Source: an uncultured Chloroflexota bacterium (lineage in GTDB: Bacteria; Chloroflexota; Dehalococcoidia; Lucifugimonadales; GCA-002694895). Taken from it: a stretch of DNA of 40,684 nucleotides. The translations under genes and the position numbers were made by a program. Below the pieces are notes generated by a model. That model worked only from the letters and a program-made list of their open reading frames with translations. It ran no database searches and had not been told where the DNA came from. The first letter of the stretch is position 1; the number at the start of each line of letters is the position of its first letter. The stretch is from assembly GCA_950054395.1 (NCBI GenBank), contig CATLOZ010000003.1, positions 1 to 40,684 on the forward strand, in the 5' to 3' direction. Positions 5,017 through 36,822 of this stretch are shown piece by piece.

Positions 5017-5092
5017 AGGAGCGTAGCTCAGTCGGTAGAGCATTGGTCTCCAAAACCAAGGGTCAGGGGTTCGAACCCTCTCGCTCCTGCCA
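5017..5092 (+). tRNA. trnW: tRNA-Trp (CCA anticodon)
   Basis: A complete cloverleaf can be drawn. The acceptor stem AGGAGCG (5017-5023) pairs with CGCTCCT (5082-5088). The D arm is GCTCAGTCGGTAGAGC. The anticodon stem TTGGT/ACCAA encloses the loop CTCCAAA with anticodon CCA at 5050-5052. The T arm contains GGTTCGAACC. The discriminator base is G, and the 3' CCA is genome-encoded (5090-5092). A CCA anticodon with G73 is diagnostic of tryptophan. The 3' 30 bases are shared, on the opposite strand, with the end of the maf reading frame. Confidence 0.97.
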
Positions 5093-5725
5093 TATATTTA
5101 TAATCTTACACAAATCACTGTTTTTAATTTTTTTACTAAATTTAATAATTTTAAAGTGAAGTAATAATTCGATTAAATTGCAAATGGGTAATCCAATTAC
5201 ATTTAATGTACACCCGTTAATCTTTTGAACTGGAGAATTTTCTCCGTCTTGTATAGCGTATGCACCGGCTTTATCTTTAATATCAAAATTATTTATGTAA
5301 TATCGTATATTTTTTTGACCCCAATTTTTAAAATGTACTTTTGTAACTTTGGTGTTATATTTAATATCACCTGTTTTTGTATTTAGAATTGAAATCGTAG
5401 TTATGACTTCATGTAAATTATTTGAAAATTTAGATAACATTTCAAAAGCATCATTCTCATCTGATGGCTTACCGAAAATTCGATTTTGAAAAGCAATTAT
5501 TGTATCTGCAGCAATTATAAATTCTTTATTATCATTATTTATTTTTTTTAATTTATCATTGCTTGTTTTTATTGAATAAGATTTTGGAAGTTCGTTTTTA
5601 TTTGGCTTAAGTTCTGCTTTATTATTAATTATTACATCAAAATTTATTCCCAAAGATTTCAACAATTCAATTCTTCTGGGTGATTTTGAAGCGAGGCCTA
5701 TAGTTGCATTTTGTGTAAAATACAT
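5063..5725 (-). CDS. maf: Maf-family nucleotide pyrophosphatase
   Basis: This is a 220-residue Maf/YhdE-type house-cleaning NTP pyrophosphatase, which hydrolyses dTTP/UTP or modified nucleotides in the cytosol. The N terminus has the family signature LASKSPRRIELLKSLG. It is followed by AADTII, GKPSDENDAFEMLS, HEVITTISI and YYINNFDIKDKAGAYAIQDG, all standard Maf blocks. The family is usually about 190-200 residues. Here a charged tail (KFSKKIKNSDLCKIINIWQE) follows, and the last ten or so codons read antisense through the T arm and acceptor stem of tRNA-Trp before reaching a stop. The gene lies ten bases downstream of the secernin-like gene on the same strand, so the two are probably co-transcribed. 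Confidence 0.9.
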   Translation of the reverse strand: MYFTQNATIGLASKSPRRIELLKSLGINFDVIINNKAELKPNKNELPKSYSIKTSNDKLKKINNDNKEFIIAADTIIAFQNRIFGKPSDENDAFEMLSKFSNNLHEVITTISILNTKTGDIKYNTKVTKVHFKNWGQKNIRYYINNFDIKDKAGAYAIQDGENSPVQKINGCTLNVIGLPICNLIELLLHFKIIKFSKKIKNSDLCKIINIWQEREGSNP

Positions 5726-31488: not shown

Positions 31489-33081
31489 ATGTTCGATGTA
31501 TTAATAATAAATGGAAATTTAGTTGATGGTACCGGTAAAAAGGCATCAAAAGCAGATATAGGGATTATTGCGGATAAAATTGATCAAATAGGAAATTTAA
31601 AAGATGCATCTGCAAAAAAAATAATTGATGCAACTGGAAAAACATTATCACCAGGATTTATTGACACACATGCTCATTCAGATGGGGCATTACTTATTGA
31701 TCCTATTCATGAAAATGGAATAAGACAAGGTATAACAACTGAAATACTTGGCCAGGATGGACTTTCTTATGCCCCTTTATCTAAAGAAAATTATTTATTA
31801 AATAAAAGATATTTAGCGGGAATTTTAGGCAATCCTCCTGATGACCTAGATATGTCTTCAGTAGAAAAATTTAGATCACATTATGATAAAAAGTGTAGTA
31901 TAAATACTGTTTATCCTGTGGCACATGGAGCTTTACGAATTGAAACTGTTGGATTTTTGGATAGGCCTTTATTAGGGGATGATATGAAAAAAGCAAAACA
32001 GCTTTTATATAAATCTCTTGAAGAGGGAGCTGTTGGATTAGCGACAGGTATGTCATATTACCCGAATGCATGGTCTGATACAAAAGAATTGATTGAATTA
32101 TGTGAAATTGTTAGTGATAGTTCAAAAGTTTATATTACACATTTAAGGGATAGAAATACAGAAAGAGGTTTTATGGGAGGTGGTGTTTTAGAAGCTCTTG
32201 AAATAGGTAGGCAATCTGGGGTGAAAGTTCATTTTTCACATACTAGGACTAGTGCGTTGAATGTTGGACAAGTCCCTGAATTGATGAAAGATATTGATGA
32301 AGCGAAATCTGAAGGTATAGATGTTACTTTGGAATTATATCCTTACCCTACAGGTAGTACATATCCATTAAGTTTTTTACCTACTTTTGCGCATGAAGGT
32401 GGGCCGGACGAGATTATAAAAAAGTTAAATGACCCAAATGAATTTGAAAAAATAGTTAGTACTATGATAGAAGAATTATCCCCTTATAGAAGAGAAGCTT
32501 TTAAGGATGCAGTGTTTTCTTATTCTCCTAATAATCCAGAATTAGAAGGTATGAGTCTTTCAGATTTAGCAAAAATGAATAATCAATCACTAGAAGTAAC
32601 ATTATGTGAACTTTTAAGGGATAACAAATTACAACTTGGTTATAGAGGCGCACCCCCAATAAATGTCAGGGTATGGAGTCAATTGAATGAAGATGCTATA
32701 AATTTATTAAAACGAGATGATTATATGGTAGGTAGTGATGCAATACCGATGGGTAAATATTGTCACCCTAGAGCTTATGGATGTTTTCCTAGATTTCTAG
32801 GAAGATTAAGAAGATCTTTTTGGGAAAATGGACTTGAAGAAATGATCCAAAGAATGACGCAAAATCCAGCTGAAAGATTTGGATTATCAGGTAGAGGAGT
32901 ACTTAAAAAAGGAAATTTTGCTGATGTTGTTATTTTTGATGCCGATAATATTAACGATTTGGCAACTTATGATGATCCTATTCAGTATCCAGTAGGTATT
33001 GAAAATGTTTTGGTAAATGGGGAATTAGTTGTACATAATAATAAAGCTACAGGTCTTACACCAGGAAGAGCGATTCCTTAA
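31489..33081 (+). CDS. N-acyl-D-amino-acid deacylase family amidohydrolase
   Basis: The 530-residue protein belongs to the D-aminoacylase branch of the amidohydrolases. The N-terminal beta domain begins DVLIINGNLVDGTGKKASKA, and the barrel opens with SPGFIDTHAHSDG (metal-site H61, H63). VYITHLRDRN and VHFSHTRTSA hold the next His ligands. VGSDAIPMGKYCHPRAYGCFPRFLGR near residue 420 contains the catalytic Asp, and the end returns to LKKGNFADVVIFDAD. At the position where D-aminoacylase has a metal-ligand Cys (GNCG), this protein reads GQDG (D90), as in a common subgroup. Substrate probably an N-acyl-D-amino acid or related amide. Its stop overlaps the convergent aminotransferase by four bases. 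Confidence 0.85.
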   Translation: MFDVLIINGNLVDGTGKKASKADIGIIADKIDQIGNLKDASAKKIIDATGKTLSPGFIDTHAHSDGALLIDPIHENGIRQGITTEILGQDGLSYAPLSKENYLLNKRYLAGILGNPPDDLDMSSVEKFRSHYDKKCSINTVYPVAHGALRIETVGFLDRPLLGDDMKKAKQLLYKSLEEGAVGLATGMSYYPNAWSDTKELIELCEIVSDSSKVYITHLRDRNTERGFMGGGVLEALEIGRQSGVKVHFSHTRTSALNVGQVPELMKDIDEAKSEGIDVTLELYPYPTGSTYPLSFLPTFAHEGGPDEIIKKLNDPNEFEKIVSTMIEELSPYRREAFKDAVFSYSPNNPELEGMSLSDLAKMNNQSLEVTLCELLRDNKLQLGYRGAPPINVRVWSQLNEDAINLLKRDDYMVGSDAIPMGKYCHPRAYGCFPRFLGRLRRSFWENGLEEMIQRMTQNPAERFGLSGRGVLKKGNFADVVIFDADNINDLATYDDPIQYPVGIENVLVNGELVVHNNKATGLTPGRAIP

Positions 33082-34430
33082 AGGTTACTTTTTATTTCAG
33101 TAGAAATATCTCTTACTAATCCAACTAATTTGTTAAGATCATTTTCCGTTGTTTTGATATTTAGAGCTCCTGCATTTTTAGTTTGCATAAGAACTCCGTT
33201 GTTCAAAAGTCCCATAAATAAAACTTTTGTTAACAAATTGTTATTGTTAATAAAAGATCTGTAATCTTTAATTTTATTGCTATTAAAATTTATTCCAAAA
33301 AGAGAGCCAATTCCCGTAATTTGGCTATCTATTTCTAGTTCATCAAAAATAGAGTTTAATTTTATTCTGAGAGAGTCACCCATAGAATTCATATTTGTAT
33401 ATTTATCTTTTGTTAATGTAGACATAACTGCAGCGCCAGCTTCCATAGTTAAAGGGTTACCATTGAATGTTCCTGCATGAGATAATTTGTAATTATTACT
33501 TGAAGGATTTAATGTTTCCATTATTTCTTCTTTACCACCAAAAGCACCTACTGGCAATCCTCCACCTATGATTTTTCCTAATGAAGTTAAATCAGGTGTT
33601 ATACCAAAAATTTCCTGAGCACCGCCGGGAGCGAGTCTATAACTTTGAATTTCATCATAGATTAAAACAATATCTAATTCATTTGTAATATCTCTTGTAA
33701 ATTGAAGAAAATTTTGTTTTAGAGGCAAATATCCTAATCCGGATATAACAGGTTCCATTATCAGACATGCTAAATCTTCTCTGTGAGCATTAATAAGTTC
33801 CTTGCTTTTTTCAATATCATTAAATGGAAGGACTATTACATCATTAAGTAAACTTTTAGGTTGTCCAGGGTATTGCAAGATACCTGGGTGAGTAGATTCT
33901 TTTAAATCTTCTGCTTTAGGGGATACGCTAATAGATACATGATCATGTGTACCATGGTAACCACCTTCAAATTTTGCTATTTTATGTTTTTGTGTATACG
34001 CTCTTGCTGCCATGATGGCCATCATGGTTGCTTCTGTACCTGAGTTAGTAAATCTTAATGTTTCCATTGAACGAGTTCTATCTGTAATTAGTTTTGCCAA
34101 TTTTGCTTGTCCATCAGTTGGGGCGCTATATGCAGTACCTTTTTGTATTTGAGTATTTAAAACATTTTTTACCTCTTCAGATGAATGCCCAAGAATAAGG
34201 CTGGTAGCATTTATCATAAAATCTAGATAATTATTTCCGTCAATATCTGTCATAATTGAGCCATGTGCGTTATCTGCATAGAATGGATATGGCTCCATCC
34301 ATTGAGTTGTTCTAGTGCTTCCTCCGGGCATGTATTTCTCAGATATTTTTTGCATTTCATATGATTTTTTAGTTTTAGAAATATATTGATTTTTTTGTTT
34401 ATCAAGTAACTGATTTAATTTCTGATTCAT
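33078..34430 (-). CDS. Class III PLP aminotransferase, glutamate-1-semialdehyde-aminomutase-like
   Basis: This 450-residue fold-type I PLP enzyme has YMPGGSTRTTQ, LRFTNSGTEATMMAIMAAR (phosphate binding), YDEIQSYR with the PLP-pairing D259, and SLGKIIGGGLPVGAFGG with the Schiff-base K286. These are the motifs of the HemL-like class III family. True HemL is about 430 residues and lies among heme genes; none is seen here. The neighbour one step upstream on the same strand (19-base gap) is a phosphonoacetate-hydrolase-like enzyme, so an amino-phosphonate lyase or transaminase is conceivable. The fold is certain, the substrate is not. Confidence 0.82.
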   Translation of the reverse strand: MNQKLNQLLDKQKNQYISKTKKSYEMQKISEKYMPGGSTRTTQWMEPYPFYADNAHGSIMTDIDGNNYLDFMINATSLILGHSSEEVKNVLNTQIQKGTAYSAPTDGQAKLAKLITDRTRSMETLRFTNSGTEATMMAIMAARAYTQKHKIAKFEGGYHGTHDHVSISVSPKAEDLKESTHPGILQYPGQPKSLLNDVIVLPFNDIEKSKELINAHREDLACLIMEPVISGLGYLPLKQNFLQFTRDITNELDIVLIYDEIQSYRLAPGGAQEIFGITPDLTSLGKIIGGGLPVGAFGGKEEIMETLNPSSNNYKLSHAGTFNGNPLTMEAGAAVMSTLTKDKYTNMNSMGDSLRIKLNSIFDELEIDSQITGIGSLFGINFNSNKIKDYRSFINNNNLLTKVLFMGLLNNGVLMQTKNAGALNIKTTENDLNKLVGLVRDISTEIKSNL

Positions 34431-34448
34431 TTTTTCACCATAAATATA

Positions 34449-35558
34449 TTAGATAGAATCTATAATATAATTTCCAATCGATTTGTTTTCAATAAAATAA
34501 TCAGGGTTTTTAGTTGTGTTTATTCCTATCAATGGGATTTTTGTTTCGTATGTTGAAGCATGAGATCTTAAATCATTTGGAATTAGCGAAATATCAGAAT
34601 TTCCAAATACAACATCTTTTTGCCCTAATATCATCAAATCTCCTATTCTGTTAGAATTTAAATTGAATTTCTGACATGCTTCCGATTTATTTAAAACATC
34701 TTCAATACCATCAACACTTTTTAGTATCTTTTTAGATTCAAAAAGGTTCGAAAGATCATTTAGATATAAGTAAATAGATCCACCAAGATTAGAATGATGA
34801 ATTTCATGTTTATCTTTAATGATTGGTATAGCAGCTGAATGTATATTATATTTACTTAATTCATTTTCTATATTAACTAATTTGGTTTTATCAGACATTC
34901 CGTGGTCAGCAGTGATAAATATTTGATAGTCTGGATTTTTATTTATTAATTCGCAAATTGATTCATCAATTAATTTTAAATGTTCTAATGAATGAGTACT
35001 TTCGGGTTTAAATTTATGCATAGGATAATCTGTTAATGAAATATATGAAAAATCAGGGGATTTTTCATATATAAGCATTGATGCAGTTGAGATAGTCCAA
35101 GAATTTGCTTTTATAGTATATATGCTGGGCGCTTCACCAAATTTTTTTATTAAAAATGTGGAAGGATTTTCTGTGGAATAGCTTAAATTATTATTAAAAT
35201 TATTATTTATTAATAACGTTTTTAATTTATTTTTTGAAGTAGCTAATATACTAGTAAGGTTTTTTTTATTACATATATTAAAAATAGTTTCTGACATCAC
35301 ATATTTGTTATCTTCTAAATATGTACCCTGATTTAGATTTTTAGAATAATGGTAATTTGAACATATCCCATGCTTTGATGGATAAACTCCGGAAATAATT
35401 GATAGATTATTAACATTTGTTACTGAAGGCATCATGCTTTTAACAGGTTTTGTAAATGATCTTTTTTTCAGAGAAATGAATTCCATTTTATGATAATTAA
35501 TATATTCGTAGTCCCAGCCGTCAATACATATAACAATAAACTTATTCATATTTACCAT
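34449..35558 (-). CDS. Alkaline-phosphatase-superfamily hydrolase, phosphonoacetate-hydrolase-like
   Basis: The 369-residue protein has a full set of two-metal residues of the nucleotide-pyrophosphatase/phosphonoacetate-hydrolase group: D13 (CIDGWDYEY), nucleophile T47 (MPSVTNVNNLSIISG), D177 and H181 (TDYPMH), D218 and H219 (TADHGM) and H332 (LRSHASTYETKIPLIG). The PSxTNxNNLSI block followed by HGICSNY recalls PhnA of Pseudomonas, which splits phosphonoacetate into acetate and phosphate. No signal peptide is seen, so it would act in the cytosol. An alternative is another phosphodiesterase/phosphonatase of this superfamily. No phn transporter or C-P lyase gene is present in the window. Confidence 0.75.
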   Translation of the reverse strand: MVNMNKFIVICIDGWDYEYINYHKMEFISLKKRSFTKPVKSMMPSVTNVNNLSIISGVYPSKHGICSNYHYSKNLNQGTYLEDNKYVMSETIFNICNKKNLTSILATSKNKLKTLLINNNFNNNLSYSTENPSTFLIKKFGEAPSIYTIKANSWTISTASMLIYEKSPDFSYISLTDYPMHKFKPESTHSLEHLKLIDESICELINKNPDYQIFITADHGMSDKTKLVNIENELSKYNIHSAAIPIIKDKHEIHHSNLGGSIYLYLNDLSNLFESKKILKSVDGIEDVLNKSEACQKFNLNSNRIGDLMILGQKDVVFGNSDISLIPNDLRSHASTYETKIPLIGINTTKNPDYFIENKSIGNYIIDSI

Positions 35559-35610: not shown

Positions 35611-36822
35611 ATGGATAGAGAATTTGAAAATATTCTAATTAAAGAGATTGTTAGACAAAACGAGTCTATTGTTCTTATAGCATCTGAAAATTATGCTAGT
35701 AAATCAGTAAGAACTGCACAAGGTTCAATATTTACTAATAAATACGCTGAAGGATATCCTGGGAAGAGATACTATGGGGGTTGTGAATACGTTGATCAGA
35801 TAGAAATATTGGCAATTCAAAGAGCTAAAGATTTATTTGGTGCTGAACATGTAAATGTACAACCCCATAGTGGAGCTCAGGCAAATATGGCAGTTTATTC
35901 AGCATTATTTGATTCTAAGAGTGTAATAATGTCTTTACCGTTAGATCAAGGAGGGCATCTAACACATGGTTCAAAAGTAAATTTTTCAGGTAATTTATAT
36001 AATTTTGAATTTTACAATGTAGATAGAGAAACCGAACAGATTGATTATGAAGCTTTAGAAAAACATGCGCAAACAGTAAATCCACAGGCAATTTTATCAG
36101 GATTCACAGCTTATCCCAGAGAAATAGATTTCGAAAGAATAAAAAGTATTTGTAAAAAAATTGATTGTATGATGATCGTTGATATGGCACATATTTCGGG
36201 TTTAGTAGCAGCAAAATTACATAGTGATTGTGTGAAATATGCTGATGTTGTTACCAGTACTACACATAAAACTTTAAGAGGTCCTAGGGGAGGAATAATA
36301 CTTTCTAAAAATATCTATGCCAAATCTATTGATAAAGCTGTTTTTCCAAATATTCAAGGCGGACCAATGATGCATACTATAGGAGCAAAAGCAGTAGCTT
36401 TTGCAGAAGCAAGCACTAATGAGTTTGTCAATTATCAAAAACTTGTAATTAGTAATGCAAAACTATTAGGAAAATTATTATCTGCTGAAGGACTTAGAAT
36501 TGTCACAGGTGACACTGACACTCATATGATATTGGTTGATGTTACTCCTTTTAATTTAACAGGTAAAATAGCTGAAGAAAAATTGGCTGAAGTTGGATTA
36601 ATAGTAAATAGAAATACAATTCCTTATGATTCTAATCCACCTAGGGTGGCAAGTGGGATAAGAATAGGAACTCCTGCAATTTCTACACGAGGTATGAATG
36701 CTGAAGCAATTTCAATTATCGTCGATTGTATAATTGGAATATTAAAAGAAAAGGAAGAATCAAAATTAATAAAAAATAAAGTAAAAGAACTAGCTAATAA
36801 ATTCCCTATTGATCTTAAATAG
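35611..36822 (+). CDS. glyA: Serine hydroxymethyltransferase
   Basis: About 403 residues from ATG 35611 (an in-frame TTG at 35602 is less likely). It interconverts serine and glycine with tetrahydrofolate, the main one-carbon source. Visible blocks are ESIVLIASENYASKSV, NKYAEGYPGKRYYGGCE, QPHSGAQANMAVY, VDMAHISGLVA, VTSTTHKTLRGPRGG (PLP lysine) and NRNTIPYDSNPPRVASGIRIGTPA. The length is normal. It overlaps the convergent RNase III gene by eight bases. Confidence 0.97.
   Translation: MDREFENILIKEIVRQNESIVLIASENYASKSVRTAQGSIFTNKYAEGYPGKRYYGGCEYVDQIEILAIQRAKDLFGAEHVNVQPHSGAQANMAVYSALFDSKSVIMSLPLDQGGHLTHGSKVNFSGNLYNFEFYNVDRETEQIDYEALEKHAQTVNPQAILSGFTAYPREIDFERIKSICKKIDCMMIVDMAHISGLVAAKLHSDCVKYADVVTSTTHKTLRGPRGGIILSKNIYAKSIDKAVFPNIQGGPMMHTIGAKAVAFAEASTNEFVNYQKLVISNAKLLGKLLSAEGLRIVTGDTDTHMILVDVTPFNLTGKIAEEKLAEVGLIVNRNTIPYDSNPPRVASGIRIGTPAISTRGMNAEAISIIVDCIIGILKEKEESKLIKNKVKELANKFPIDLK

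Follow-up and report, generated by a model that had tools for sequence, protein, structure and literature searches.

A putative, solitary carbon-phosphorus bond hydrolase of a sister subfamily to PhnA in an uncultured Dehalococcoidia bacterium

Phosphonoacetate hydrolase, PhnA, is the closest described relative of the enzyme considered here; its metals are zinc, and its gene serves as a marker for the use of phosphonates in the sea. Two lysines that stabilize the aci-carboxylate leaving group are described as a requirement of PhnA in one review (PMC10574752). Among the class III pyridoxal 5'-phosphate (PLP) enzymes, PbfA is presented, in excerpts of two papers, as the ammonia-lyase of (R)-1-hydroxy-2-aminoethylphosphonate (R-HAEP; PMC8154272, PMC12366243). 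Here we examine a PhnA-like protein of 369 residues and an adjoining class III aminotransferase, both encoded on a stretch of 40,684 nucleotides (the window) of contig CATLOZ010000003.1 (C3) from an uncultured Chloroflexota bacterium, the order of which, Lucifugimonadales, we infer to be the SAR202 group. The assembly (G000) comprises 1.26 Mb in 84 contigs and is 76% complete. We think it probable, though well short of certain, that the protein is a metal-dependent carbon-phosphorus (C-P) bond hydrolase of a sister subfamily to PhnA, that it is solitary, and that the aminotransferase has a role of its own. The hydrolase likely works like PhnA, which is not to claim that it is PhnA.

A sequence-only reading of the window had placed the two open reading frames (ORFs) 19 bases apart. 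Both are present there on the minus strand, the putative PhnA-like C-P hydrolase at 34449..35558 and the aminotransferase (450 residues) at 33078..34430, with a spacer of 18 bases, and two ORFs of this description are far beyond chance. Translation of the hydrolase probably begins at Met4 of the frame as listed (35549), because the orthologue in G017, the nearest relative with an identical gene arrangement, starts there. The assignment of the hydrolase draws on the ORF, profiles, a tree and a predicted structure. In a profile search of the window proteins it is matched by PF01663, of the alkaline phosphatase superfamily, and by TIGR02335 (E 2.4e-51, 175.1 bits), and in a sequence search by the sequences of solved PhnA structures (1ei6, E 5.2e-44). 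The metal and nucleophile residues and the PSxTNxNN block, which had been described as complete, are all present, the block reading PSVTNVNN. In an alignment of 118 rows (116 of the family and two outgroups), the predicted metal ligands are D13 (codon 35520..35522; 114/116 family rows), D177 and H181 (the codons from D177 to H181 span 35016..35030; 115/116 rows each), D218 and H219 (34902..34907; 116/116) and H333 (34560..34562; 115/116), and the predicted nucleophile is T47 (35418..35420; 116/116), all on the minus strand. Together, D13, T47, D177, H181, D218, H219 and H333 align to D29, T68, D211, H215, D250, H251 and H377 of Sinorhizobium meliloti PhnA, which we take to be the metal ligands and nucleophile of that enzyme. 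The PhnA lysine pair is found as K109 and K111 (K109-N110-K111 codons 35226..35234, minus strand), aligned to S. meliloti K130 and K132 in 116/116 family rows and in neither of the two outgroups.

Structure comparison points the same way. An AlphaFold model of the hydrolase has a pLDDT (predicted local distance difference test) of 94.9, Foldseek ranks PhnA chains first (E 1.8e-38), and VIA-align gives Z of 47.8, 47.0 and 46.7 against 1ei6 and the S. meliloti 1021 structures 3szy and 3t02, with a root-mean-square deviation of 2.1-2.5 over 360-367 residues. The window protein is like PhnA in fold, metal ligands, threonine nucleophile, lysine pair and the asparagine and arginine/histidine of the site. 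The next-best structure is a nucleotide pyrophosphatase (NPP) at Z 30.7; with the ENPPs and Xac NPP the protein has the alkaline phosphatase superfamily fold and metal site in common, at Z about 30 and 14-19% identity, whereas the two outgroup sequences are without the lysine pair. In the tree, the PhnA superclade is split from the two outgroup proteins with a support of 98 in the SH-like approximate likelihood-ratio test (SH-aLRT). An NPP identity was rejected, since tree placement, lysine pair and structure comparison all go with PhnA, and the proposed PhnA type thus stands apart from outgroups of the pyrophosphatase/alkaline phosphatase type.

Within the superclade, the window protein is separate from canonical PhnA. 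Canonical PhnA, including that of S. meliloti, forms a clade of 18 rows (SH-aLRT 100), and the window hydrolase lies outside it, in a distinct clade of 38 Dehalococcoidia rows (SH-aLRT 99). The deep branches are weak (SH-aLRT 5-24), so that any branching order among the non-canonical clades is tentative. Left out of the tree are nine loci that copy contigs already included (L097-L105), one long branch (L144), proteins below 250 residues, and three loci at which no gene was assigned to the family cluster (L139, L143, L156). Compared with the solved PhnA enzymes, the window hydrolase has 26-31% identity, is about 50 residues shorter and is without phnY or phnW alongside. Fifteen alignment columns, some with gaps, are fixed differently in the 18 canonical and the 38 Dehalococcoidia rows; the changes from canonical to window residue include S186 to N152, Q214 to M180, T288 to K248, M101 to Y80, N103 to E82 and G379 to S335, and the column of K248 holds K or R in 54 of the 60 other non-canonical rows. 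By TIGR02335, four canonical controls score 494.8-536.8 bits, six non-canonical proteins 173.4-224.6 bits and three more 201.9-217.3 bits. Non-canonical proteins of PhnA type from Desulfobacteraceae, Planctomycetota, Acidobacteriota, Halobacteriales and other groups (among L111-L176, L073 and L076) have the same residue set as the window protein and, where scored, the same range below the model's cut-off.

From what was computed, namely the predicted fold, the residues, the phylogenetic place, the distribution and the loss of the gene in relatives, we infer metals, substrate and chemistry as follows. Two metal ions at D13, D177, H181, D218, H219 and H333 would hold the phosphonate, as in PhnA; Thr47 would attack the phosphorus, and K109 and K111 would steady a carbanion-like carboxylate leaving group. 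The products would be phosphate and a small organic acid, which would be acetate if the substrate is phosphonoacetate.

The remainder of a known phosphonate pathway was sought in the same genomes. The earlier observation that phnW, phnY and transporter genes are not beside the two genes was borne out. In the 76%-complete source genome the best PhnW-AepZ match reaches 197.7 bits against a cut-off of 360.8, PhnY and PhnD-type binding proteins have no matches, and PepM finds nothing closer than distant members of the lyase family (best E 7.3e-22). Across five genomes of the genus, the best PhnX match is 38.5 bits (cut-off 220) and the best PhnE match 39.2 bits (cut-off 216.7), C-P lyase (PhnJ) not having been searched. 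The wider lack of phnW, phnY and transporter genes holds for the families searched in this incomplete genome, and it is common in the order, where 52 of 197 genomes have the hydrolase and none has a PhnW over the TIGR02326 cut-off. Weaker PhnW matches (E 1e-60) occur in eight genomes of the order, six of which have them on a contig shared with PepM. Because PhnW, PhnY, PhnX and a Phn transporter were not found, the hydrolase probably works by itself, on a phosphonate taken up in finished form. A dependence of the hydrolase on phosphonate biosynthesis was also considered and rejected: PepM-like proteins (at least 260 bits) are present in 13/197 genomes, of which five have the hydrolase (Fisher p 0.33). 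In a narrower set with PepM and a PhnW-like protein on one contig, five of six have it (p 0.005); several of these belong to the same family or genus and the set was picked after the first test, so it is not used as proof, and the hydrolase gene adjoins the PepM/PhnW-like genes in G093 alone.

In the order, the hydrolase has matches at E 1e-3 in 72 of the 197 genomes and long matches of the window type (E below 1e-60) in the 52 mentioned above; some of the loci lie on contigs labeled SAR202 cluster. In seven genomes (G031, G033, G037, G047, G063, G078, G090) there is a match of a second type, at 29-31% identity, and the five of these matches placed in the tree (L053-L057) belong to the canonical PhnA clade. 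In named genomes, scanning by pattern brought up at least 587 relatives, and 80 of them were taken into the comparison. Genes of phosphonate type lie within 8 kb at 6/15 canonical, 10/58 other non-canonical and 3/38 Dehalococcoidia loci, counts that vary with the chosen thresholds and with contig ends; some of the non-canonical relatives thus stand within phosphonate loci, whereas the Dehalococcoidia members mostly do not. Several relatives from other groups than Dehalococcoidia, likewise below the PhnA cut-off, lie in such surroundings. At a Desulfobacteraceae locus (L125, 6388-14445) the non-canonical PhnA-like gene is accompanied by PhnW (435 bits, cut-off 360.8) and PbfA (717.3 bits, cut-off 525), together with a hydrolase of the haloacid dehalogenase superfamily and an acylating aldehyde dehydrogenase whose best model is the sulfoacetaldehyde dehydrogenase SauS, and the route there might run via an acyl-CoA instead of PhnY. 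Two loci (L137, L142) have binding proteins of phosphonate/phosphite type at 108.3 and 111.7 bits, just short of the cut-off of 112.05; L163 has a dehydrogenase with PhnY as its best model (514.5 bits, cut-off 635.65), and L158 has one that is like it by similarity. Within the order, at L039 (G093), the PhnA-like gene lies 55 bases ahead of pepM (330.8 bits, cut-off 319.55), which is followed by a split ppd and a phnW-like gene. Given these contexts, the wider family most likely performs C-P chemistry.

Some further loci of the family are of interest in their own right. On the contig that L039 shares with L098 (JAPULR010000107.1), the putative C-P hydrolase gene heads an aminoethylphosphonate biosynthesis cluster (L039:2416-6723). 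On plasmids of Halorussus limi (L073) and Haladaptatus salinisoli (L076), the PhnA-like gene lies in a conserved haloarchaeal cluster with an enzyme of the methylisocitrate lyase/phosphoenolpyruvate (PEP) mutase family, MmgE/PrpD, a TcuA-like dehydrogenase, an iron-type alcohol dehydrogenase, a thiamine pyrophosphate (TPP) enzyme and transporters of the major facilitator superfamily, which is possibly an undescribed carboxy-phosphonate pathway. Tandem pairs of PhnA-like genes occur downstream of an ATP-binding cassette (ABC) transporter at L141:9983-12311 and L145:9971-11892, and on a Rhizobium plasmid (L179:8914-14029) phnA is followed by a second gene of the alkaline phosphatase family and then by phnD-phnE-phnC.

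The two window genes had been proposed to form a unit, and this is not supported by their history in the genus. They adjoin and are co-directional in G000 and, 2 bases apart, in G017. Two other genus genomes (G069, G083) retain a block of genes for a family 4 glycosyltransferase (GT4), GNAT, cupin, amidohydrolase, the aminotransferase, serine hydroxymethyltransferase (SHMT), RNase III, GlnA, PdxS and PdxT, in which an intact hydrolase gene is absent. For six shared proteins, G017, G069 and G083 group together (84.5-86.8% identity) with G000 outside (77%); since G000 and G017 both have the hydrolase gene and G000 lies outside the group, the gene would be ancestral and later lost in G069 and G083. 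Relics are found in the expected place and on the expected strand in both (the two sites being L225:9343-9655 and L224:4887-5018). In G083 a broken C-terminus of the hydrolase lies right before the aminotransferase (62% over 34 residues, E 6e-6), and in G069 a frame of 13 codons fuses the first codons of the hydrolase to its last ones; their local scores are 95 and 48, respectively, against maxima of 44 and 42 in 500 shuffles, none of which reach either. The aminotransferase was retained after this loss and therefore does not require the hydrolase. It is also present, with different neighbors, in G028, G177 and G098, while the fifth genus genome (G052) has a close copy of neither gene and is uninformative on the pair. 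By comparison of these sequences, the aminotransferase would be an old neighbor with its own job, lined up with the hydrolase gene only in those genomes that have kept the latter.

That the neighbor is a class III PLP enzyme is upheld by its PF00202 match, and its PLP-lysine context is SLGKIIGGG. It had also been likened to PbfA-type lyases, with which it has the PF00202 fold in common, but that identity was rejected: the PbfA model (NF049939, cut-off 525; controls at 615.7 and 717.3 bits) is absent from the 25 NCBIfam models that match it best, which go down to 118.6 bits, and it has 23% and 28% identity, at 59 and 52 bits, to two proteins above that model's cut-off. Neither is it HemL, the other outcome that had been considered, as it scores 356.2 bits against the TIGR00713 cut-off of 527.3 and has 30% identity to HemL of Escherichia coli (242 bits); by the same model, nothing in the 76%-complete source assembly passes as HemL. 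With PDB 6k8h, an aminotransferase class III protein and its top structure match (335 bits), it belongs to the HemL-like (glutamate-semialdehyde-aminomutase-like) branch, and it has 26% identity to GabT (118 bits). Relatives at E 1e-60 are present in 187/197 genomes of the order, many as paralogues, and such relatives are far commoner than the hydrolase. To judge from its family, its role is likeliest that of an ordinary transaminase of amine or beta-amino-acid type, and a functional link to the adjoining hydrolase is a candidate only.

Several observations weigh against a solitary, PhnA-like C-P hydrolase. Its TIGR02335 score misses the cut-off of 407.55 bits, and among the Dehalococcoidia loci only L039 (1/38) has clear phosphonate genes within 8 kb, two more having just an aldehyde dehydrogenase that matches loosely. 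The hydrolase gene adjoins thrB/lysC (homoserine kinase, aspartokinase) in 12 of the 38 clade rows, which might point to another role; its loss from two genomes of the genus means that the hydrolase is dispensable, and subfamily-wide changes at positions conserved in canonical PhnA may mean another substrate. At L036 and L064, moreover, orthologues of the aminotransferase (49%) lie on the same strand as the hydrolase gene, at distances of 2.5 and 3.3 kb, other neighbors also being common to both loci. These last two loci, the adjoining and co-directional genes of G000 and G017, and the true PbfA genes that accompany relatives of the hydrolase at L125 and L171 would suit a compact phosphonate-scavenging pair, in which the PLP enzyme makes phosphonoacetaldehyde or phosphonoacetate precursors from an aminophosphonate. 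We regard such a pair as improbable, as the aminotransferase is not PbfA by model or identity, outlives the loss of the hydrolase and elsewhere has other neighbors; the PhnY-type aldehyde dehydrogenase was not found in the incomplete source genome, and without it the known route from phosphonoacetaldehyde to phosphonoacetate would be closed.

PhnA chemistry on a different substrate, with another stabilized carbanion as leaving group, for example a substituted or larger carboxy-phosphonate, would account both for the changes specific to the subfamily and for the variety of gene contexts. The 15 column differences, T288 to K248 among them, may reflect such a change, and the haloarchaeal contexts with their lyase/PEP-mutase family, MmgE/PrpD and TPP enzymes, and that of L039 beside pepM-ppd, are consistent with it. 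However, every catalytic and lysine position is the same as in PhnA, and the contexts of L125, L158 and L163 suit phosphonoacetate itself, which leaves a different substrate somewhat unlikely in our judgment. Far less credit is due to a phosphate-ester enzyme of amino-acid metabolism, linked for example to homoserine kinase and aspartokinase and merely built on a PhnA scaffold. The thrB/lysC genes and a window block rich in amino-acid genes speak for it, but the thrB/lysC link is mostly within one family (f41) and is therefore perhaps just inherited order; the lysine pair and PhnA fold suit C-P cleavage, and the phosphonate contexts of the relatives do not suit an ester role.

Among the titles listed in a literature search combining SAR202 or Chloroflexi with phnA, phosphonoacetate hydrolase or phosphonate, none describes this enzyme in SAR202, and two SAR202 papers, in the excerpts available, mention phosphonate use or transport in general terms only (PMC11245477, PMC5395668). 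One survey, in the passage at hand, kept phnA reads at a 50% identity filter (PMC9381506). Filters of this kind may miss the window protein because of its 26-31% identity to the solved PhnA enzymes, and, if the C-P hydrolase reading is true, surveys by the TIGR02335 cut-off or at 50% identity would miss the sister subfamily. Should the hydrolase be active, estimates of how far these bacteria can cleave C-P bonds are too low; should its substrate be a different one, a natural phosphonate as yet without a name is there to be sought. The broader proposal, that SAR202 bacteria hold a widespread, unrecognized sister subfamily of PhnA through which a single gene gains phosphate or carbon from a carboxy-phosphonate obtained ready-made, which may not be phosphonoacetate, is tentative, and we would sooner doubt it than rely on it. 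The decay of the gene in two relatives offers a natural test of its dispensability.

The gene pair is flanked on one side by a divergent SHMT gene (35611..36822, plus strand), kept in all four genus genomes compared, and on the other by a convergent amidohydrolase-family gene (31489..33081, plus strand) that overlaps the aminotransferase stop by 4 bases, a flank retained in G069 and G083. Neighboring genes in the relatives were called with a simple ORF caller, so that small genes and starts are uncertain. A pattern scan for leader motifs gave no matches. The loci with thrB/lysC alongside are L044, L050, L058, L059, L062, L063, L065, L067, L068, L072, L108 and L110. Elsewhere in the window, a tRNA-Trp gene (5017-5092, plus strand) lies antisense to the 3' end of a listed ORF of 220 residues (5063-5725, minus strand).

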